Program-made: the position numbers and the translations under genes
Source of the DNA: Natronocalculus amylovorans
Lineage (GTDB): Archaea > Halobacteriota > Halobacteria > Halobacteriales > Haloferacaceae
DNA length: 64,000 bases
Reading direction: 5' to 3'
Assembly: GCF_023638035.1 (NCBI RefSeq)
Contig: NZ_JAKRVX010000001.1
Span: 620,001-684,000, forward strand
Notes under the pieces: generated by a model
The model's database searches: none
What the model was told of the DNA's origin: nothing
Seen by the model: only the letters and a program-made list of their open reading frames with translations
In this document: one piece after another, positions 31,778 through 43,381 of the stretch
How positions within the stretch are numbered: position 1 is the first letter of the stretch
How the letters are laid out: each line of letters starts with the position of its first letter

Positions 31778-33217
31778 TTAGAACCCACCGTCGCCCTGTC
31801 CTGAAAGCGTATCCCAGCGATCGAGGATAACCGACGTTGCGGTTGTCCCGTTGAGCTGCATGATATACTTCAGGCTCTTGATGTGGTGATTACGTTCGAG
31901 ATGTTCGGTTCCTGGTCGATCGACTTTGTTGCGATCGATATCGCCAAAACCCGAAAGGAACGATCGAAGTTGATCTGCAACATTCGGACCGATCCACTCG
32001 ATTCGCTCATAATAGTTCACTGCGCGTGCGGCATCCGTAACATTGGATTTACCAACAAGGAACTCAAGCCACTCCATCACAACGAGGTCCCCAACGTAAT
32101 CACCGGGGAGCTGTGTGAGATACGGCTTCTCACCACCAGCCGCCAGTTGATCCGGTTGGACAAACTGGAAACTGCCTGCGGCGCCACCGCCGCCGGACTG
32201 TGATGTCGGTTCTGGCTCTGCATCGGCGTTGGTTTCGATCGGTGCGAGGTCCTCGCTTGACTGGCCGTTTTCCATTGGGCCACCGAAGTCATCACCGTCA
32301 TCAAACTCATCGTCGAACCCGCCTTCATCCTCGAACTCGTCATCGAAGCCGTCGTCAAAGCCATCGTCTTCAAACTCATCGTCGAAGCCATCATCGAACT
32401 CATCGTCGGCCCCCATCTCGTCATCGGCCCACTCAGCTTCGCCGGAGTCGTACTCTTCTTTTAATTCGCTAAACGTCTTACCACCGGATTCGGTTTGATC
32501 ACTGACCATCTCTTCTGATTCTGTTTCTAGTTCGTCGCCGAATTCGTCTTCGGCGTCGTCGTCATCGAGGTCTTCATCAAAGAAGCCCTCTGCGTCGGCA
32601 CTCATAATCGATTCATCGACGTCTTCTTCAGCCTCTTCTTCTTCCTCACCTGAGTCGAACAACCCAAGCGATCCGTCACCGCCGAGGTCAAAGTCGCTTC
32701 CTCCCTCGTCGACAAACGGGTTGATTCCGCGGGTAACCATCTCATAGATATCGAGAAGATTTCTGATGTCTTCTTCAACATCTTCAACTCGTTCGGAGAT
32801 CTCGGTATTTTCACTTCGAACGGTGTTGACCGTCGATGAGAGGGTTGCAACTTCATTTTCGAGTTCATCGAGCTGGTGTTCGATCTCATCGAGATCCGCA
32901 CCATTTCCGCCATCATCTCCACCAAAGGCATCGCCACCCTCGCCGAAGCCACCCATGTCGTCGAAATCATCAAAGTCATCACCCATATCGCCGAAGCCAC
33001 CGCCACCTCCAGCATCATCCATCAACGCGTCTCCACTTCCTCCTCCATCGGAATCCCCATCTTTGGAGTTGTTGTCGAGGATCCGTTCGAGGATGCTTGC
33101 ACCAACGAGCCCGAACGCACCCATCGCGGCCGGCCCGAGCAGCAGTAGTTCGATACCGCTCAGGCCACCGTCTGTCAGCGCCGGGAGTGTAATCAACAGC
33201 GACATACCGAGGCCCAT
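31778..33217 (-). CDS. arlCE: Fused archaellum switch protein ArlCE (FlaCE)
   Basis: A 479-residue fusion typical of euryarchaea. A short hydrophobic N terminus (about 1-45) leads to a Gly/Asp-rich stretch, a coiled coil (about 95-140, LDELENEVATLSSTVN), and a long acidic linker containing DDEF/DDGF-type repeats (about 270-345). The C-terminal FlaD/E domain begins at PYLTQLPGDYVGDLVVMEWL. ArlCDE proteins connect the motor to the chemotaxis adaptor CheF. A later start at 33205 is possible. The linker is longer and more repetitive than I would expect. Confidence 0.9.
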   Translation of the reverse strand: MGLGMSLLITLPALTDGGLSGIELLLLGPAAMGAFGLVGASILERILDNNSKDGDSDGGGSGDALMDDAGGGGGFGDMGDDFDDFDDMGGFGEGGDAFGGDDGGNGADLDEIEHQLDELENEVATLSSTVNTVRSENTEISERVEDVEEDIRNLLDIYEMVTRGINPFVDEGGSDFDLGGDGSLGLFDSGEEEEEAEEDVDESIMSADAEGFFDEDLDDDDAEDEFGDELETESEEMVSDQTESGGKTFSELKEEYDSGEAEWADDEMGADDEFDDGFDDEFEDDGFDDGFDDEFEDEGGFDDEFDDGDDFGGPMENGQSSEDLAPIETNADAEPEPTSQSGGGGAAGSFQFVQPDQLAAGGEKPYLTQLPGDYVGDLVVMEWLEFLVGKSNVTDAARAVNYYERIEWIGPNVADQLRSFLSGFGDIDRNKVDRPGTEHLERNHHIKSLKYIMQLNGTTATSVILDRWDTLSGQGDGGF

Positions 33218-33288
33218 TACCGAAAAACATACTCCGAGCCTACTTCAAACCACCTCTCCGAATTTCAGCGTTGAGATTTTGCGCCGTT

Positions 33289-35012: not shown

Positions 35013-35375
35013 TTAGGCTGGAACCACGTCGTTGATTGCGTCCAAGACGTTTGGCTTCTGGAACGGCTTTGTGATGTAGCCGGATGCGCCCGCCTTGATC
35101 GCTTCTTTCATCTTTTCTTCCTGTCCGACACTGGTACACATGATGATCTTTGCGTTTGGATCGTCTGTGGTAATCTCGTCTGTGGCTTCGATCCCGCTTC
35201 GGATCGGCATCACAATATCCATCATCACAATATCTGGATCTTCCTGTTCATAGAGGTTGACCGCTTCAACACCGTTTTCAGCCTCTCCAACGATCTCAAA
35301 GTCGCCTGCTAGAATCTCTCGGAGCAGATTGCGCATGAACTCCGAATCATCTGCGATGAGCACTCGCTTCGCCAT
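35013..35375 (-). CDS. cheY: Chemotaxis response regulator CheY
   Basis: A 120-residue single receiver domain. The phosphorylation pocket is complete: D9 and D10, acceptor D53 in MMDIVMP, T81 and K103 in ITKPF. In archaea CheY-P binds CheF to control the archaellum switch. CheA, CheB, CheR, CheW and CheF are not in this window, so the rest of the pathway lies elsewhere. A TGTTTAAG TATA-like sequence about 30 nt upstream suggests a local promoter. Confidence 0.95.
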   Translation of the reverse strand: MAKRVLIADDSEFMRNLLREILAGDFEIVGEAENGVEAVNLYEQEDPDIVMMDIVMPIRSGIEATDEITTDDPNAKIIMCTSVGQEEKMKEAIKAGASGYITKPFQKPNVLDAINDVVPA

Positions 35376-35464
35376 ATATCTAATATGGACAATGGCAGTC
35401 GCTTAAACACTTGCCTACAGTTATCAACCGTGAGAACAGACACCGGCGGTGAGCGTGGGTTTTG

Positions 35465-36169
35465 TTAGTCTTTTCGCGACGGTGGGACGGTGAACGACCC
35501 CTCTTGTCTGACAGCAGTGAGAAGGTCCGCGATCGAATCATCCGGTGTGAGCCCATACGTTTTCAACATTCCATAGACGCTCTGAACCGGATAGTCAACC
35601 TCGGTATCCATTGATGCGAGGAGAATTCCAATGACACGCTCCGGGGGTAGTTCGTCTGTCGCTTGATCGGCATACCACAGCAGCATCGATTCAAGCGCGT
35701 TGCCGATGTCGTTGGAGGCAGCTCTCGTCCGTTTGACGTTGCCCTCCATGTCGATCGTCAAGTCGTAGCCATACTGCCCTCGATTTTTCGCAAACGATTT
35801 TGCAAGCCACTGGCTCACATCGTTCGCGCTAATGTTGCCGCTTGGCTCCGGTGGTTTGTTGGGTGTCGATCGATCAGGCGTTGGGGTGTCTGTTGGCTGT
35901 GGATCTGGTTGTGTTTGGGCTGTTTGTGTGGTGTTCGGTTGTGGTTGCGGAGCTTGTTCATCCGCGTCCTCATCGTCATCTCGTTGCAGCCAGTCCTGTT
36001 TTTCCAGTGCATCTGGATCGACTCGTGGGGTGCCGCTCGGTGAGACAACATAGCGGCCCTCGTCGATCTCCGCGACCTCTCGGCGTCTCGAAATGTCGAG
36101 GTCGTTGGGGTCGAGGACCGATCGACGCTTGCGCTTGCTCTGCTTTTTGTCAGAATCATCCGGTGCCAT
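35465..36169 (-). CDS. Motility-cluster protein of unknown function
   Basis: A 234-residue protein between the archaellins and cheY. The N-terminal third is basic then acidic, with a short beta motif EGRYVVSPSGTPRVD. The middle (about 75-115) is a Pro/Gln/Thr-rich spacer. The C-terminal domain (about 118-230) is helical and looks conserved (VSQWLAKSFAKNRGQYGYDL). No catalytic motif. A haloarchaeal motility-cluster family is likely; a scaffold between chemotaxis and motor is a guess. Confidence 0.7.
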   Translation of the reverse strand: MAPDDSDKKQSKRKRRSVLDPNDLDISRRREVAEIDEGRYVVSPSGTPRVDPDALEKQDWLQRDDDEDADEQAPQPQPNTTQTAQTQPDPQPTDTPTPDRSTPNKPPEPSGNISANDVSQWLAKSFAKNRGQYGYDLTIDMEGNVKRTRAASNDIGNALESMLLWYADQATDELPPERVIGILLASMDTEVDYPVQSVYGMLKTYGLTPDDSIADLLTAVRQEGSFTVPPSRKD

Positions 36170-36231: not shown

Positions 36232-36831
36232 TTACAAGCGGTACGTTTGGTCTTCTTCGATCGTACTTGGTGCTCGTTTTTCAACGAATGCAGTACCACC
36301 TGACGCTGTTGTGATGGTAACAGTCATTGTTTCACCTTCAGCCAGCGTTTCAATATTGTCAAGATCGAACACGAGTTGTGCTCTGTCGCTTGAGTCAGAG
36401 AGTGACCCTTCACTGGCACCTTGAATATCGACGATTGCAAACTCGCTTTCACCGGGAGTCGCATCATCGAAATCATCCGCAATACCACCTTCGTCATCGA
36501 ATGTTAGCGTATCTGAAGAGCCATCAGCAAAGACCTCAATAATAGAGTTATTGAGATTTATATCATCTGCACCGGGACTCCGAAGAACGGTAATCCCGAC
36601 TTTGCTAATATTATCAGTGTCATTAGCTTCACCAATGACGGTCGAAATTTGGACGCGATCGACCACCTGTTGGCTGCTCTCTTCACCAGTTGCTTCTGCT
36701 TGTGCTTGGAGGAATCCAGCGGTGTTTATCAGCACACCAGCGGCAATTGCAGCAACCAGCACCATCGCGATGAACACGATCAGGGTACCGATTCCCACTT
36801 GACCTCTATCTTTGTCGTTTGTGTTAAACAT
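36232..36831 (-). CDS. arlA: Archaellin (standalone copy)
   Basis: A 199-residue archaellin. The class III signal peptide [10 protein letters not shown] is cleaved before [18 protein letters not shown], the hydrophobic filament core. The C-terminal block [19 protein letters not shown] and the end TYRL are shared with the three other copies. N-x-S/T sites such as NDT, NIS and NNS suggest N-glycosylation. It is separated from the other three by about 310 bp and probably has its own promoter. Confidence 0.93.
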
Positions 36832-37013
36832 TGTTTCGTCTGTGTTTCATTCCACAAGTACGGTTACGCATCATCATCTGGCGGCTCTCAAGCAAGTGGC
36901 AACAACAGTCATCGAAATCGACATAGCAAGATGATCGGTGCGTAATGTACTGTCTACGCTGTGCTGGTTGGCTGCACGCGTAGATGGCAATGAAAACTTA
37001 CAATTTAACTCAC

Positions 37014-37019
37014 ATAAAA
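37014..37019 (-). promoter_or_regulatory. Candidate TATA box of the standalone archaellin
   Basis: TTTTAT on the minus strand, eight bases downstream of the degenerate upstream element. The spacing matches the other two element-promoter pairs. Confidence 0.35.
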
Positions 37020-37027
37020 ACAAGTGT

Positions 37028-37048
37028 CAAAATATTTTATTTGATAAT
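37028..37048 (-). promoter_or_regulatory. Degenerate archaellin upstream element (third copy)
   Basis: Plus-strand reading is CAAAATA, seven unmatched bases, TGATAA. Both half-sites and their spacing equal those of the two strong copies, 13 of 21 positions in total. The region is AT-rich, so chance similarity is possible. Confidence 0.35.
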
Positions 37049-37142: not shown

Positions 37143-37739
37143 TTACAGGCGGTACGTTTCGCCGGTTTCGATCGTACTTGGAGCTCGTTTCTCAACGAAC
37201 GCAGTGCCTCCTGATGAGGTTGTTACCGTGATCGTGACTGTATCTCCTTCTGAGAGTGCACTCTCATCGCCAAGTGCGAAGACAAGTTGCGCACGGTCAC
37301 TCGAGTCGGAGAGGTCACCCTCTTCAGCGTTTTGGATGTTGACGATGGAGAAGTTTTCACCGGCATTTGGGTCTGCATCATCGAAATCATCCGCAATACC
37401 ACCTTCGGCATCGAATGTGAGTGTATCCGATGACCCATTTGCGAACACTTCAATAATCGAATTATTGAGGTTTATATCATCAGCGCCAGGGCTTCGAAGG
37501 ACGGTCATTCCGATTTTATCGATCTGGTCCTCATCAGATGCGTTCCCAATGACGCTGGAAATCTGGACGCGATCAACCACTTGTTCTGCACTCTCTTCAC
37601 CGGTTGCTTCTGCTTGTGCTTGCAGGAAGCCAGCGGTGTTAATGAGCACACCTGCTGCGATCGCTGCGACGAGAACCATCGCAATGAACACAATCAGCGT
37701 ACCGATTCCCACTTGACCTCTGTCGTTATCGTTGAACAT
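37143..37739 (-). CDS. arlA: Archaellin (third gene of operon)
   Basis: A 198-residue archaellin with signal peptide MFNDNDRG before QVGIGTL. It is closest to the standalone copy: both contain [20 protein letters not shown] and [10 protein letters not shown]. The centre carries an N-glycosylation motif (NGS) and an NNS. Its stop abuts the hairpin at 37112-37142. Spacing to the preceding archaellin is 32 bp. Confidence 0.93.
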
Positions 37740-37771: not shown

Positions 37772-38344
37772 TTACAATCTGTACGACTGACCGCTTTCAA
37801 CGGTGCTTGGTGCACGTTTCTCAACGAATGCAGTACCACCTGCTGCGGTCGTGATGGTGATGACAACATTGTCGCCCGGTGCGAGCGCCGCACCATCGAC
37901 GTTTTCGTTCAAGCTGAACTGAATTTCAGCTCGATCATCACTGCTTGCAAGGGTTTCGGGGTTATCTTCGTCGCCTTGGATCTGTTCGATCGTGAACTCG
38001 TTGTCACCATCTGACTCATTTACCAAAGTCGCAGACGTGCCATTGGCAAACACTTCAACGACGACATTTGATAAGTCGATATTACCAGCACCTGGTGCAC
38101 GTCGAACTGAGACGTTGAGATCGTCAATTTCGTCGTCGTCGTTGGCGGTCCCAACAACGGAGACAACTTCGACACGGTCGCTTACTTGTTCTGCAGTCTC
38201 TTCACCGGTTGCTTCTGCTTGTGCTTGCAGGAAGCCAGCGGTGTTAATGAGCACACCTGCTGCGATCGCTGCGACGAGAACCATCGCAATGAACACAATC
38301 AGCGTACCGATTCCCACTTGACCTCGGTCGTTTTTATCAAACAT
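37772..38344 (-). CDS. arlA: Archaellin (second gene of operon)
   Basis: A 190-residue archaellin with signal peptide MFDKNDRG before QVGIGTL. The core and C terminus match the others, but the middle differs: [21 protein letters not shown], and an insertion around [17 protein letters not shown]. Sequons NVS, NGT and NES are present. It starts 27 bp after the first gene of the operon. Confidence 0.93.
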
Positions 38345-38374: not shown

Positions 38375-38959
38375 TTACAGACGGTATGATTCGTCTGATT
38401 CAACGGTACTTGGTGCGCGTTTCTCAACGAACGCGGTACCACCTGACGCAGTGGTGATTGTGACGGTTACCGAGTCACCCTCTTCAAGTGCTTGTCCGTT
38501 GGCAGAAAGATTGACAATCAGATCAGCACGGTCACCACTGTCAGCGAGAACATTGTCATCGCCTTCGATCATGGTGATGTTGAAGTTATTTTCATCTGGC
38601 GCATCGTCACTGTCTGCATCGAATGTCAGTGTTGACGAGTTTCCATTGGCGAATACCTCAACAATGGAGTTATTGAGGTCGATATTACCAGCACCCGGCG
38701 AGCGGCGAACTGATGCCTCAAGCTCGTCAATCTCTTCACTATCGTTCGCGTTTCCGACCACCGAGACAACTTGTACTCGGTCGCTTACTTGTTCTGCGCT
38801 CTCTTCTCCGGTTGCCTCTGCTTGTGCCTGCAGGAAGCCTGCAGTGTTGATAAGGACGCCTGCTGCGATCGCTGCAACAAGGACCATCGCAATGAATACG
38901 ATGAGGGTCCCAATCCCCACTTGACCTCTATCTGTCGACTCTGAGTTGTTTCCGAACAT
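38375..38959 (-). CDS. arlA: Archaellin (first gene of operon)
   Basis: A 194-residue archaellin. I chose ATG 38959 ([12 protein letters not shown] before QVGIGTL), which leaves a normal class III signal; the open frame extends further but lacks signal features. The middle resembles the second gene ([20 protein letters not shown]). As promoter-proximal copy it is probably the major archaellin. TATA and upstream element lie at 39026-39061. Confidence 0.93.
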
Positions 38960-39025
38960 TGTTTGTTGTCGTCTGCGGACGCATCGCCCGTTCCAGACGT
39001 TACTCCAACGAAGCAACAGCTACCG

Positions 39026-39031
39026 TATAAA
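39026..39031 (-). promoter_or_regulatory. TATA box of the archaellin operon
   Basis: TTTATA on the minus strand, in CCTTTATACGG. It predicts a start near 39000 and a leader of about 40 nt before the ATG at 38959. Confidence 0.55.
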
Positions 39032-39040
39032 GGTAATTTC

Positions 39041-39061
39041 CAAAATACCAAGAGTGATAAC
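39041..39061 (-). promoter_or_regulatory. Upstream element of the archaellin operon (copy 1)
   Basis: Plus-strand reading starts CAAAATACCA and ends AGTGATAAC. It matches the copy at 39522-39542 at 19 of 21 positions, in the same orientation relative to the downstream gene, and ends 9 bp before the TATA box. It is probably a regulator site or extended BRE. Confidence 0.65.
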
Positions 39062-39195
39062 AATGCTTCAGCCCTCAAATAACCCGAATTCGGCAAATTA
39101 GCCCAATTACATATAACCACTCCGATCAACTATACCTCGTTCCAGTTCTCAGTCCTGATAACAGAACCACGCCCAAAAACAACCCTCAATCCGGC

Positions 39196-39477
39196 TTAAT
39201 TGTAGGAAACTAAACTATAGACAACGAACATGAATCCGGTTGTGGTTAAGGTGCTGTTAACCACCAGCAGCGATCGGACGTTCTCGAAATCAGTGACAAA
39301 GGCACTGATTGTCGTTGCCACCGCCGCGGCAACGATGAGCGCAAAGCCGATCGACAAATGGACCATTGCGTGCTTTTCGGTATCCAAATATGCCCGTATC
39401 GCCATCCAAACCATGGTGAGCCCCGCGAATGCAAGTCCAGCAGTTGTGGCGAGATACAGCACTTCGACGAAATTCAT
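39196..39477 (-). CDS. Three-TM protein paired with winged-helix regulator (DUF7521-like)
   Basis: A 93-residue protein with three hydrophobic segments (about 5-28, 40-62 and 70-90) and an acidic loop DTEKHAMVH. It looks like the haloarchaeal DUF7521 family (memory only). It is divergent from a winged-helix gene, and its promoter carries the same 21-nt element as the archaellin operon. It may be the membrane sensor partner of that regulator. Confidence 0.7.
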   Translation of the reverse strand: MNFVEVLYLATTAGLAFAGLTMVWMAIRAYLDTEKHAMVHLSIGFALIVAAAVATTISAFVTDFENVRSLLVVNSTLTTTGFMFVVYSLVSYN

Positions 39478-39506
39478 GTACGGTTCGAACAGATCAGGTG
39501 GGGCCT

Positions 39507-39512
39507 GTTAAG
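39507..39512 (-). promoter_or_regulatory. TATA-like box of the three-TM gene
   Basis: Minus strand CTTAAC in TGCTTAACAGG, about 30-35 nt before the ATG at 39477 and 9 bp from the upstream element. Weaker than a consensus box. Confidence 0.4.
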
Positions 39513-39521
39513 CATCGCTAT

Positions 39522-39542
39522 CAAAATACCACCAGTGATAAC
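39522..39542 (-). promoter_or_regulatory. Upstream element in the divergent promoter (copy 2)
   Basis: Plus-strand reading starts CAAAATACCA and ends AGTGATAAC, differing from the archaellin copy only at two central bases. It lies between the three-TM gene and the winged-helix gene, so it could control both and give autoregulation. Confidence 0.65.
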
Positions 39543-39578
39543 ATCGGGTAAATATCGCTGACGCGGGCACCGACACCC

Positions 39579-39588
39579 TTTTTATTTC
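39579..39588 (+). promoter_or_regulatory. TATA box of the winged-helix gene
   Basis: TTTTTATTTC lies 22-31 nt before the ATG at 39610, predicting an almost leaderless transcript. Confidence 0.5.
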
Positions 39589-39609
39589 AAAGAACGCAGA
39601 TATCAACGA

Positions 39610-39945
39610 ATGGCTACGGATGAGCTCATCGAGGTGCTTGGAAACAAGTACAACACCGAAATCCTCGCAGCAACTAGCGAGCCAAAATCCGCCCAAGAAC
39701 TCAGTGATGAACTTGGCGTGCCGATCGCAACCTGTTATCGGCGGATTAACGAGCTCACCCAAACTGACCTGCTCGAACTACACGATCGACCACTCTCGGA
39801 TGAACACCGTCGAATCAAAGTCTACCGGCGGAACGTCGATCAGATCGAGATTGATTTTAAAAACGGCATGAGCGTCGAAATTTCCGAACGGTCGGAAGTC
39901 AAAAACAAACTCGACGAAGTGTGGCGAACAATGTCGGACGCCTGA
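39610..39945 (+). CDS. Winged-helix regulator next to archaellin operon
   Basis: A 111-residue ArsR-like winged-helix protein. Helix-turn-helix: TSEPKSAQELSDELGVPIATCYRRINEL (about residues 22-50, recognition helix ATCYRRINEL). A wing around LSDEHRRIKVYRR follows, then a C-terminal acidic helical part. No metal-site Cys pattern. Divergent from the three-TM gene and 650 bp from the archaellin operon. Gene arrangement and the shared 21-nt element make it the best candidate regulator of archaellin genes; this is inference. Confidence 0.8.
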   Translation: MATDELIEVLGNKYNTEILAATSEPKSAQELSDELGVPIATCYRRINELTQTDLLELHDRPLSDEHRRIKVYRRNVDQIEIDFKNGMSVEISERSEVKNKLDEVWRTMSDA

Positions 39946-42406: not shown

Positions 42407-43135
42407 TTAGAACGATGGGCCACTACCGCCACCCATCATTGAGAATCCGCCGGCTCGCTCATACACCGTAATGCCTTCGTCACTGATTTCCATCGGGAAA
42501 ATATCCGTATTTATGCTCTGTTTCCGCATCTTTGCAACCCAGACGTATCGGTTGACTCCGGAGTCAGTCGGTGTCTGGATGAAGTATATATTGCCATCTG
42601 TCAGAAAATTCTCTAGCCCAATCTCCGTCTCCGGGAACACAGCTCCCTGTTCGTTGATGAGCAGCGAAGTCATTCCGTGTTGTTTGAGAATATCGGAGAA
42701 TTTCAACAGATATGTCCGCTTCTCTTTCTCATCGTCGAAAAAGAGTTGAAACATCGTCAGTGAGTCAAGCACGAGCCGATCGTAGCTCTCATCAGCAAAA
42801 TCTTCTAACAGCAGATCCATTGTGGCGGTGAAATCACCCTCACGGAGCATCTTGTTTTTACCGTAGACTTTGATATCGCCACTTTCGACAAGCTCTTGCC
42901 AGTGTTCCATTCCGATACTTTCTGCAGCACGGCGGATATCGTCCGCATTCTCTTCAAACGAGATGTAGATTCCGCGCTGATCTTCCTCAGTGGCCCCGGT
43001 ATAGAGATACTGGATGCCAAAGATACTTTTTCCCGTTCCGGGGTTGCCGCTTACAAGGACAGTCGATCGCTCTCCAATACCACCACCGAGGATGGAGTCT
43101 AATCCATCAATTCCAGTTCTGATTATGTCTGACAT
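42407..43135 (-). CDS. KaiC/RAD55-like ATPase
   Basis: A 242-residue RecA-fold protein with Walker A GNPGTGKS (30-37) and a Walker B strand YDRLVLDSLTMFQLF. It has a single KaiC domain, not the double form of clock KaiC. Haloarchaeal relatives act as signalling ATPases. ATG 43135 (MSDIIRTGIDG) is the family start. It is divergent from a HalX response regulator and may share its signal. Confidence 0.87.
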   Translation of the reverse strand: MSDIIRTGIDGLDSILGGGIGERSTVLVSGNPGTGKSIFGIQYLYTGATEEDQRGIYISFEENADDIRRAAESIGMEHWQELVESGDIKVYGKNKMLREGDFTATMDLLLEDFADESYDRLVLDSLTMFQLFFDDEKEKRTYLLKFSDILKQHGMTSLLINEQGAVFPETEIGLENFLTDGNIYFIQTPTDSGVNRYVWVAKMRKQSINTDIFPMEISDEGITVYERAGGFSMMGGGSGPSF

Positions 43136-43381
43136 GGGCACACTTATTGGAGACATATGTTGCCCTCCTAAAAGAGAGCACCGCCTTTGGGATGGCTACC
43201 AACCCAACCAAGTGAGCGATAGTACCAGATAATATAGCTGAATTTGCAATGTTGTTGCCAGTTATTCAGTTAGGTTTATAGGTTCTCGCACAAGCGTATT
43301 GGTACATATGGGTCGGGAGCAGGTGAATTTCGTGGGAATTGGTCATTCCACGACAGCGACCACTTTGCGGGTGAGAAACTA

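Follow-up and report, generated by a model that had tools for sequence, protein, structure and literature searches.

The 64,000-nucleotide stretch of Natronocalculus amylovorans DNA analyzed here (the window; contig NZ_JAKRVX010000001.1, positions 620,001 to 684,000, with coordinates below counted from its first letter) carries two nearly identical 21-mers beside a gene for a winged-helix protein, one upstream of an archaellin operon and the other upstream of a gene for a small membrane protein of the DUF7521 family. Judged from sequence comparisons, these 21-mers are very probably operators of the winged-helix protein, itself a probable orthologue of CsmR (HVO_1209), the 13-kDa winged-helix protein encoded beside arlA1/arlA2 in Haloferax volcanii (PMC13286277, June 2026). 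A preliminary description of the window had named the adjacent winged-helix protein as the obvious candidate for the regulator, an idea that both the comparative tests below and CsmR of H. volcanii support; it had also considered the system not known as described, a statement overtaken by that publication, in which regulator and motif appear. The core idea is thus right, yet already known. The predictions that go beyond the published work, and are new, concern a partner role for DUF7521, how wide the conserved regulon is, and a link to pilins in genomes that lack archaellins.

Two predicted operators and a probable CsmR orthologue

The elements on which the argument turns are the following.

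39041-39061, minus strand: predicted CsmR-type operator of the archaellin operon; 21-mer GTTATCACTCTTGGTATTTTG, 9-nt gap, TATA-like TTTATA at 39026-39031
39522-39542, minus strand: predicted CsmR-type operator of the DUF7521 gene; GTTATCACTGGTGGTATTTTG, 9-nt gap, TATA-like CTTAACA at 39506-39512
39610-39945, plus strand: probable csmR orthologue, winged-helix regulator of 111 aa and 12.8 kDa; HTH_20 match, E 2.2e-9; Phr-like fold
39196-39477, minus strand: DUF7521 protein of 93 aa, putative CsmR membrane partner; three long predicted helices (three transmembrane segments)

The two 21-mers lie in the same orientation, are identical at 19 of 21 bases and are each separated from a TATA-like box by exactly 9 nt, as the preliminary description had it in every detail, coordinates included. 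No 21-mer match with three or fewer mismatches arose in 100 dinucleotide shuffles of the window. The functional strand is the reverse complement, GTTATCACTnnTGGTATTTTG, which faces the archaellin operon and the DUF7521 gene, both on the minus strand; the second copy does lie between the two genes as reported, but it belongs to the DUF7521 promoter and is not primarily a site of the winged-helix gene. When the window was searched with profile R1, the archaellin-operon operator, which had been withheld from training, scored 21.1 bits (E 2.7e-5) and the DUF7521 operator 11.7 bits (E 0.029). The whole genome holds one additional copy, with three mismatches, on contig 19; it lies within a peptidase gene, and we rejected it as an operator and took it as chance.

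The winged-helix protein matches HTH_20 above the cut-off, and the best PDB match to its predicted structure is Phr (2P4W, E 9.5e-6), so that the earlier label "ArsR-like" is borne out by the fold; PH1932, annotated as an ArsR homologue, was matched by profile as well. The published account places CsmR in the Lrp/AsnC class and also lists Phr as a structural neighbour (PMC13286277). In the 111-aa protein, Pfam gave no match to the AsnC ligand-binding (RAM) C-terminal domain, and no Lrp protein was among its 50 best fold matches. Relatives of the gene occur in 58 of 60 genomes, where close orthologues adjoin archaellin, KaiC-like and DUF7500 genes, and the gene order of HVO_1208-1212 was found again at loci L058-L061. 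The recognition-helix segment PIATxYRR is invariant among 35 aligned CsmR orthologues; in csmR paralogues the same segment is mostly PLSTTYRK or similar.

In H. volcanii, chromatin immunoprecipitation sequencing (ChIP-seq) of CsmR found the motif TATCA(N4)TGATA adjacent to TATA in 50 of its 65 peaks, and CsmR is modulated by the KaiC-like protein CirA (PMC13286277). The gene, motif and surroundings in the window fit this system in every respect testable here: both comprise a winged-helix protein of about 13 kDa encoded beside archaellin genes and near a KaiC-like gene, the motif TATCA(N4)TGATA next to TATA, archaellum and chemotaxis targets and Phr as a structural neighbour. They differ in that csmR of the window is oriented divergently from a DUF7521 gene with a predicted operator, a gene absent from PMC13286277, and in that the window has four archaellin genes with two predicted operators and the genome seven chemoreceptor genes with predicted operators. 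Autoregulation of csmR as a general rule was rejected on four loci lacking DUF7521 (L038, L042, L045 and L051), where no operator stands immediately upstream of csmR.

Conservation of the palindrome and the predicted regulon

We ran an expectation-maximization motif search on 69 regions upstream of archaellin and DUF7521 genes at loci of csmR-related genes. The search split them into 40 sites scoring 22-44 bits (29 archaellin and 11 DUF7521 promoters) and a remainder at or below -9.5 bits, with the 99.9th percentile of shuffled sequences at 6.8; because the profile was fitted to the same regions, the evidence is this gap and not the absolute scores. Operon-internal archaellin genes scored low, as expected, and a twelfth DUF7521 site emerged at L067 (16.0 bits) once its corrected start codon was used. 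The consensus reads TTATCA-N4-TGATA followed by a rigid 9-nt gap to TATA, and its palindromic core, TATCA-N4-TGATA, is a predicted operator for a dimer. Counting the window, 12 of 13 csmR-linked DUF7521 promoters have the operator at the same promoter position. Among named species, DUF7521 lies beside csmR with the operator between them in Halorubrum saccharovorum and H. sodomense, and likewise in Halopenitus persicus, H. malekzadehii, Halegenticoccus soli and H. tardaugens. An exact motif search of genome contigs gave no match, since the palindrome persists in otherwise divergent sequence. The preliminary description had held that absence of the motif upstream of orthologous archaellin and three-transmembrane genes would speak against its idea; we found the opposite.

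Two genomes of one genus (G009 and G035), which count as one evolutionary case, have archaellins and csmR-like paralogues and lack a close csmR orthologue; in neither does the profile detect an operator. Three others (G010, G013 and G029) have a csmR orthologue and no archaellin gene. There, operator matches precede type IV pilin genes, three in G010 (L201, L205 and L206) and one in G029 (L202), whose products have the N-termini VSPVIGVILMVAITV. As read from these genomes, the distribution is unlike the published one, in which csmR and archaellins always occur together in Halobacteria (PMC13286277).

For the regulon, a profile built from sequence only, on 38 sites from other genomes and none from the window, was run on the genome of the window and gave 18 matches at E ≤10. 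Two (L159 and L160) are intragenic, without a plausible target. Of the rest, some lie upstream of motility and chemotaxis genes (two archaellin genes, cheB, cheW and seven for chemoreceptors) and some upstream of genes for two PAS sensor proteins, a peroxiredoxin, an unnamed membrane protein and a DUF7289/DUF7305 protein. Single weak matches are to be treated cautiously. The chemoreceptor genes with a predicted operator are 7 of the 13 in this genome (P ~2e-14, assuming 3,300 genes), and in relatives the operator profile again yields cheB, cheW, a cheY-like gene, chemoreceptors and DUF7521. The regulon computed here would thus comprise archaellum and chemotaxis genes, as for CsmR; of the "small motility regulon" proposed earlier, motility stands and small does not, with chemoreceptors, cheB, cheW and cheY among the predicted members. 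Together, the operators found across genomes indicate a CsmR regulon conserved across Halobacteriales, with chemoreceptors and pilins added as predicted targets.

Among these matches, L148 stands before the DUF7289/DUF7305 protein, L149 before a seven-transmembrane PAS sensor protein and L158 before a PAS histidine kinase. Both the genome of the window (L151, contig 12 of G000) and G001 (L220) encode a hydrophobic protein of about 215 aa with an operator upstream; the two are related and in no Pfam family, and this protein is a predicted conserved CsmR target.

DUF7521, promoter geometry and alternative readings

The product of 39196-39477 matches DUF7521 (PF24365) at 40 bits, above the cut-off of 27, and its predicted structure consists of three long helices; a PDB fold search with it gave nothing better than E 0.97. 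In a midpoint-rooted tree, the csmR-linked copies group as a single clade (support 1.0), and all 14 relatives carrying this subtype have archaellins (P 5e-4 over 59 genomes and 0.016 over the 46 good ones, uncorrected for shared ancestry). The family at large occurs in 55 of 60 genomes (G000-G059), in up to 12 copies per genome. Outside the motility locus, all 30 sampled loci (L082-L111) place DUF7521 directly behind a csmR-paralogous winged-helix gene on the same strand, and because of this pairing the family is suggested to work with csmR-type regulators. DUF7521 is mentioned neither in PMC13286277 nor elsewhere in the literature searched, and a search for winged-helix/membrane-protein pairs of this kind returned nothing relevant; as a conserved predicted target and genetic partner of CsmR it is apparently new relative to that paper.

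In the mechanism that we propose, a CsmR dimer would bind TATCA-N4-TGATA, centred about 21 bp (about two helical turns) upstream of the start of TATA. It would sit just upstream of the transcription factor B (TFB) recognition element (BRE) and contact TFB or the TATA-binding protein (TBP), leaving the core promoter uncovered, and would control the adjacent DUF7521 gene together with archaellin, che and chemoreceptor genes. DUF7521 might in turn report the state of the membrane to CsmR, or tether it; CsmR-controlled DUF7521 synthesis would then close a feedback loop, and the pair would resemble the membrane-bound ArnR of Sulfolobus split over two genes. Since repressors in archaea usually cover either TATA or the start site, the geometry leans towards an activator or modulator. 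Simple occlusion fits an operator two helical turns upstream of TATA less well than contact with the basal factors does, a point of relevance to the activator/repressor paradox of the published work. That work states the route by which signals reach CsmR as unknown (PMC13286277); DUF7521, which is linked genetically and apparently co-regulated, is a candidate for this input.

We put a partner role of DUF7521 at close to an even chance. Nearly as plausible is that DUF7521 is a plain CsmR target, for example an accessory archaellum membrane protein: it has the operator, and across genomes it follows archaellins rather than csmR, as in G014, where both retain the operator although DUF7521 sits with the archaellins at a chromosomal site remote from csmR. 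A plain target sits poorly with the 30 loci at which the family stands behind a csmR paralogue and not an archaellum gene. More broadly, and tentatively, with the odds slightly against it, CsmR may belong to a large class of haloarchaeal two-gene signalling modules, as yet undescribed, each a small winged-helix regulator with its cognate three-transmembrane DUF7521 protein. At the motility locus CsmR would control its own partner, so that a feedback loop ran from membrane to archaellum; in lineages that lost archaella, CsmR would have been kept and would point to type IV pilins.

The identity of the 21-mers as CsmR operators has more distant competitors. Haloarchaea have several TFB and TBP paralogues, and the distance to TATA is fixed in all copies, as would suit an extended core-promoter element (a BRE variant or a site for a TFB or TBP paralogue) in place of a site for a gene-specific regulator. 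This is highly improbable, given a palindromic core spaced away from the BRE position, its restriction to motility, chemotaxis and pilin promoters, its absence from genomes without csmR and the recovery of the same motif by CsmR ChIP-seq (PMC13286277). It is also very unlikely that another winged-helix protein, such as a csmR paralogue paired with another DUF7521, binds the site and that csmR is a mere neighbour. More csmR-like genes do exist in the genome, and paralogues could share specificity, but PIATxYRR distinguishes CsmR orthologues from most paralogues, G009 and G035 have paralogues without operators, and the published ChIP-seq was done on CsmR itself (PMC13286277). A chance match or a recent, functionless local duplication would agree with there being only two near-identical copies genome-wide; its likelihood is negligible, since promoters throughout the order have diverged copies at equivalent positions and che and chemoreceptor genes have sites in trans.

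Several observations count against the CsmR reading or its extensions. The csmR-linked DUF7521 gene at L063 has no operator, and many csmR loci, those of the Haloferax-type arrangement included, have no DUF7521, so that DUF7521 is not an obligate CsmR partner everywhere. Archaellins lack a recognisable operator in G002 (L163) and G030 (L175) despite a csmR or csmR-like gene. Orthology of the 39610-39945 product to HVO_1209 rests on synteny, motif and fold and not on a direct alignment of the two proteins. Deletion of csmR in H. volcanii abolishes motility while archaellum transcripts paradoxically rise, a misfit with a simple activator (PMC13286277). The operator-less archaellin genes of G002 and G030 are of a different type and unlinked to csmR; these clusters are perhaps acquired and under other control.

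Other archaeal regulators share parts of this design. EarA of Methanococcus and Pyrococcus, likewise a winged-helix protein, regulates the archaellin promoter from a site immediately upstream of the BRE, although the sequences said to be bound are of 6 bp, compared with the 14-bp palindrome here; CsmR is reported to have no similarity to EarA (PMC13286277). ArnR/ArnR1 of Sulfolobus acidocaldarius also couple a helix-turn-helix domain to membrane segments in archaellin control (per PMC13286277), in a single polypeptide, whereas here two genes would be involved and only an inferred coupling. Among ArsR-type regulators, Phr of Pyrococcus furiosus (2P4W) is the best fold match, but it regulates the heat-shock response and has about 200 aa, against 111 aa for the protein encoded in the window.

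Further predicted operators and genes in the window

The profile search of the window gave five predicted operators as its five highest scores (16.0-38.2 bits), the sixth reaching only 7.7. The three additional ones are more diverged and were missed in the preliminary description; a cheY-like gene of a relative likewise has an operator (L226).

37010-37048, minus strand: third predicted operator with TATA, fourth archaellin gene; ATTATCAAATAAAATATTTTG, R1 17.9 bits, E 3e-4
35399-35437, minus strand: weaker predicted operator with TATA, upstream of cheY; GTTCTCACGGTTGATAACTGT, 9-nt gap, TTTAAGC
33240-33278, minus strand: weaker predicted operator with TATA-like TTTGAA, upstream of the arlCE-like gene; from the profile search
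38375-38959, minus strand: archaellin gene 1, first of the operon; PF01917, E 2.7e-36
37772-38344, minus strand: archaellin gene 2
37143-37739, minus strand: archaellin gene 3
36232-36831, minus strand: archaellin gene 4, with its own predicted operator
35013-35375, minus strand: cheY; an open reading frame named by sequence and position, in synteny with relatives
31778-33217, minus strand: arlCE-like gene of the archaellum cluster, named from sequence features and position and not from a family search
42407-43156, minus strand: KaiC-like gene, probable cirA orthologue; PF06745, E 1.3e-48, and synteny

The KaiC-like gene adjoins csmR in most relatives. A DUF7500 gene (35465-36169), the positional counterpart of HVO_1208, keeps its place beside archaellin and csmR genes in most relatives.

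The inferred 5' leaders of the archaellin mRNAs are 28-64 nt long and appear to contain a stem-loop shortly after the inferred start site (38960-39005, minus strand, in the window; archaellin operons of L034-L069 in relatives). The stem sequences vary between species, and leaders whose stems differ in length cannot be aligned with one another. Of 29 leaders, 28 fold into structures more stable than their own shuffles (z from 0 to -3.7; one at +0.4), and the stem-loop could have a role in mRNA stability or translation.
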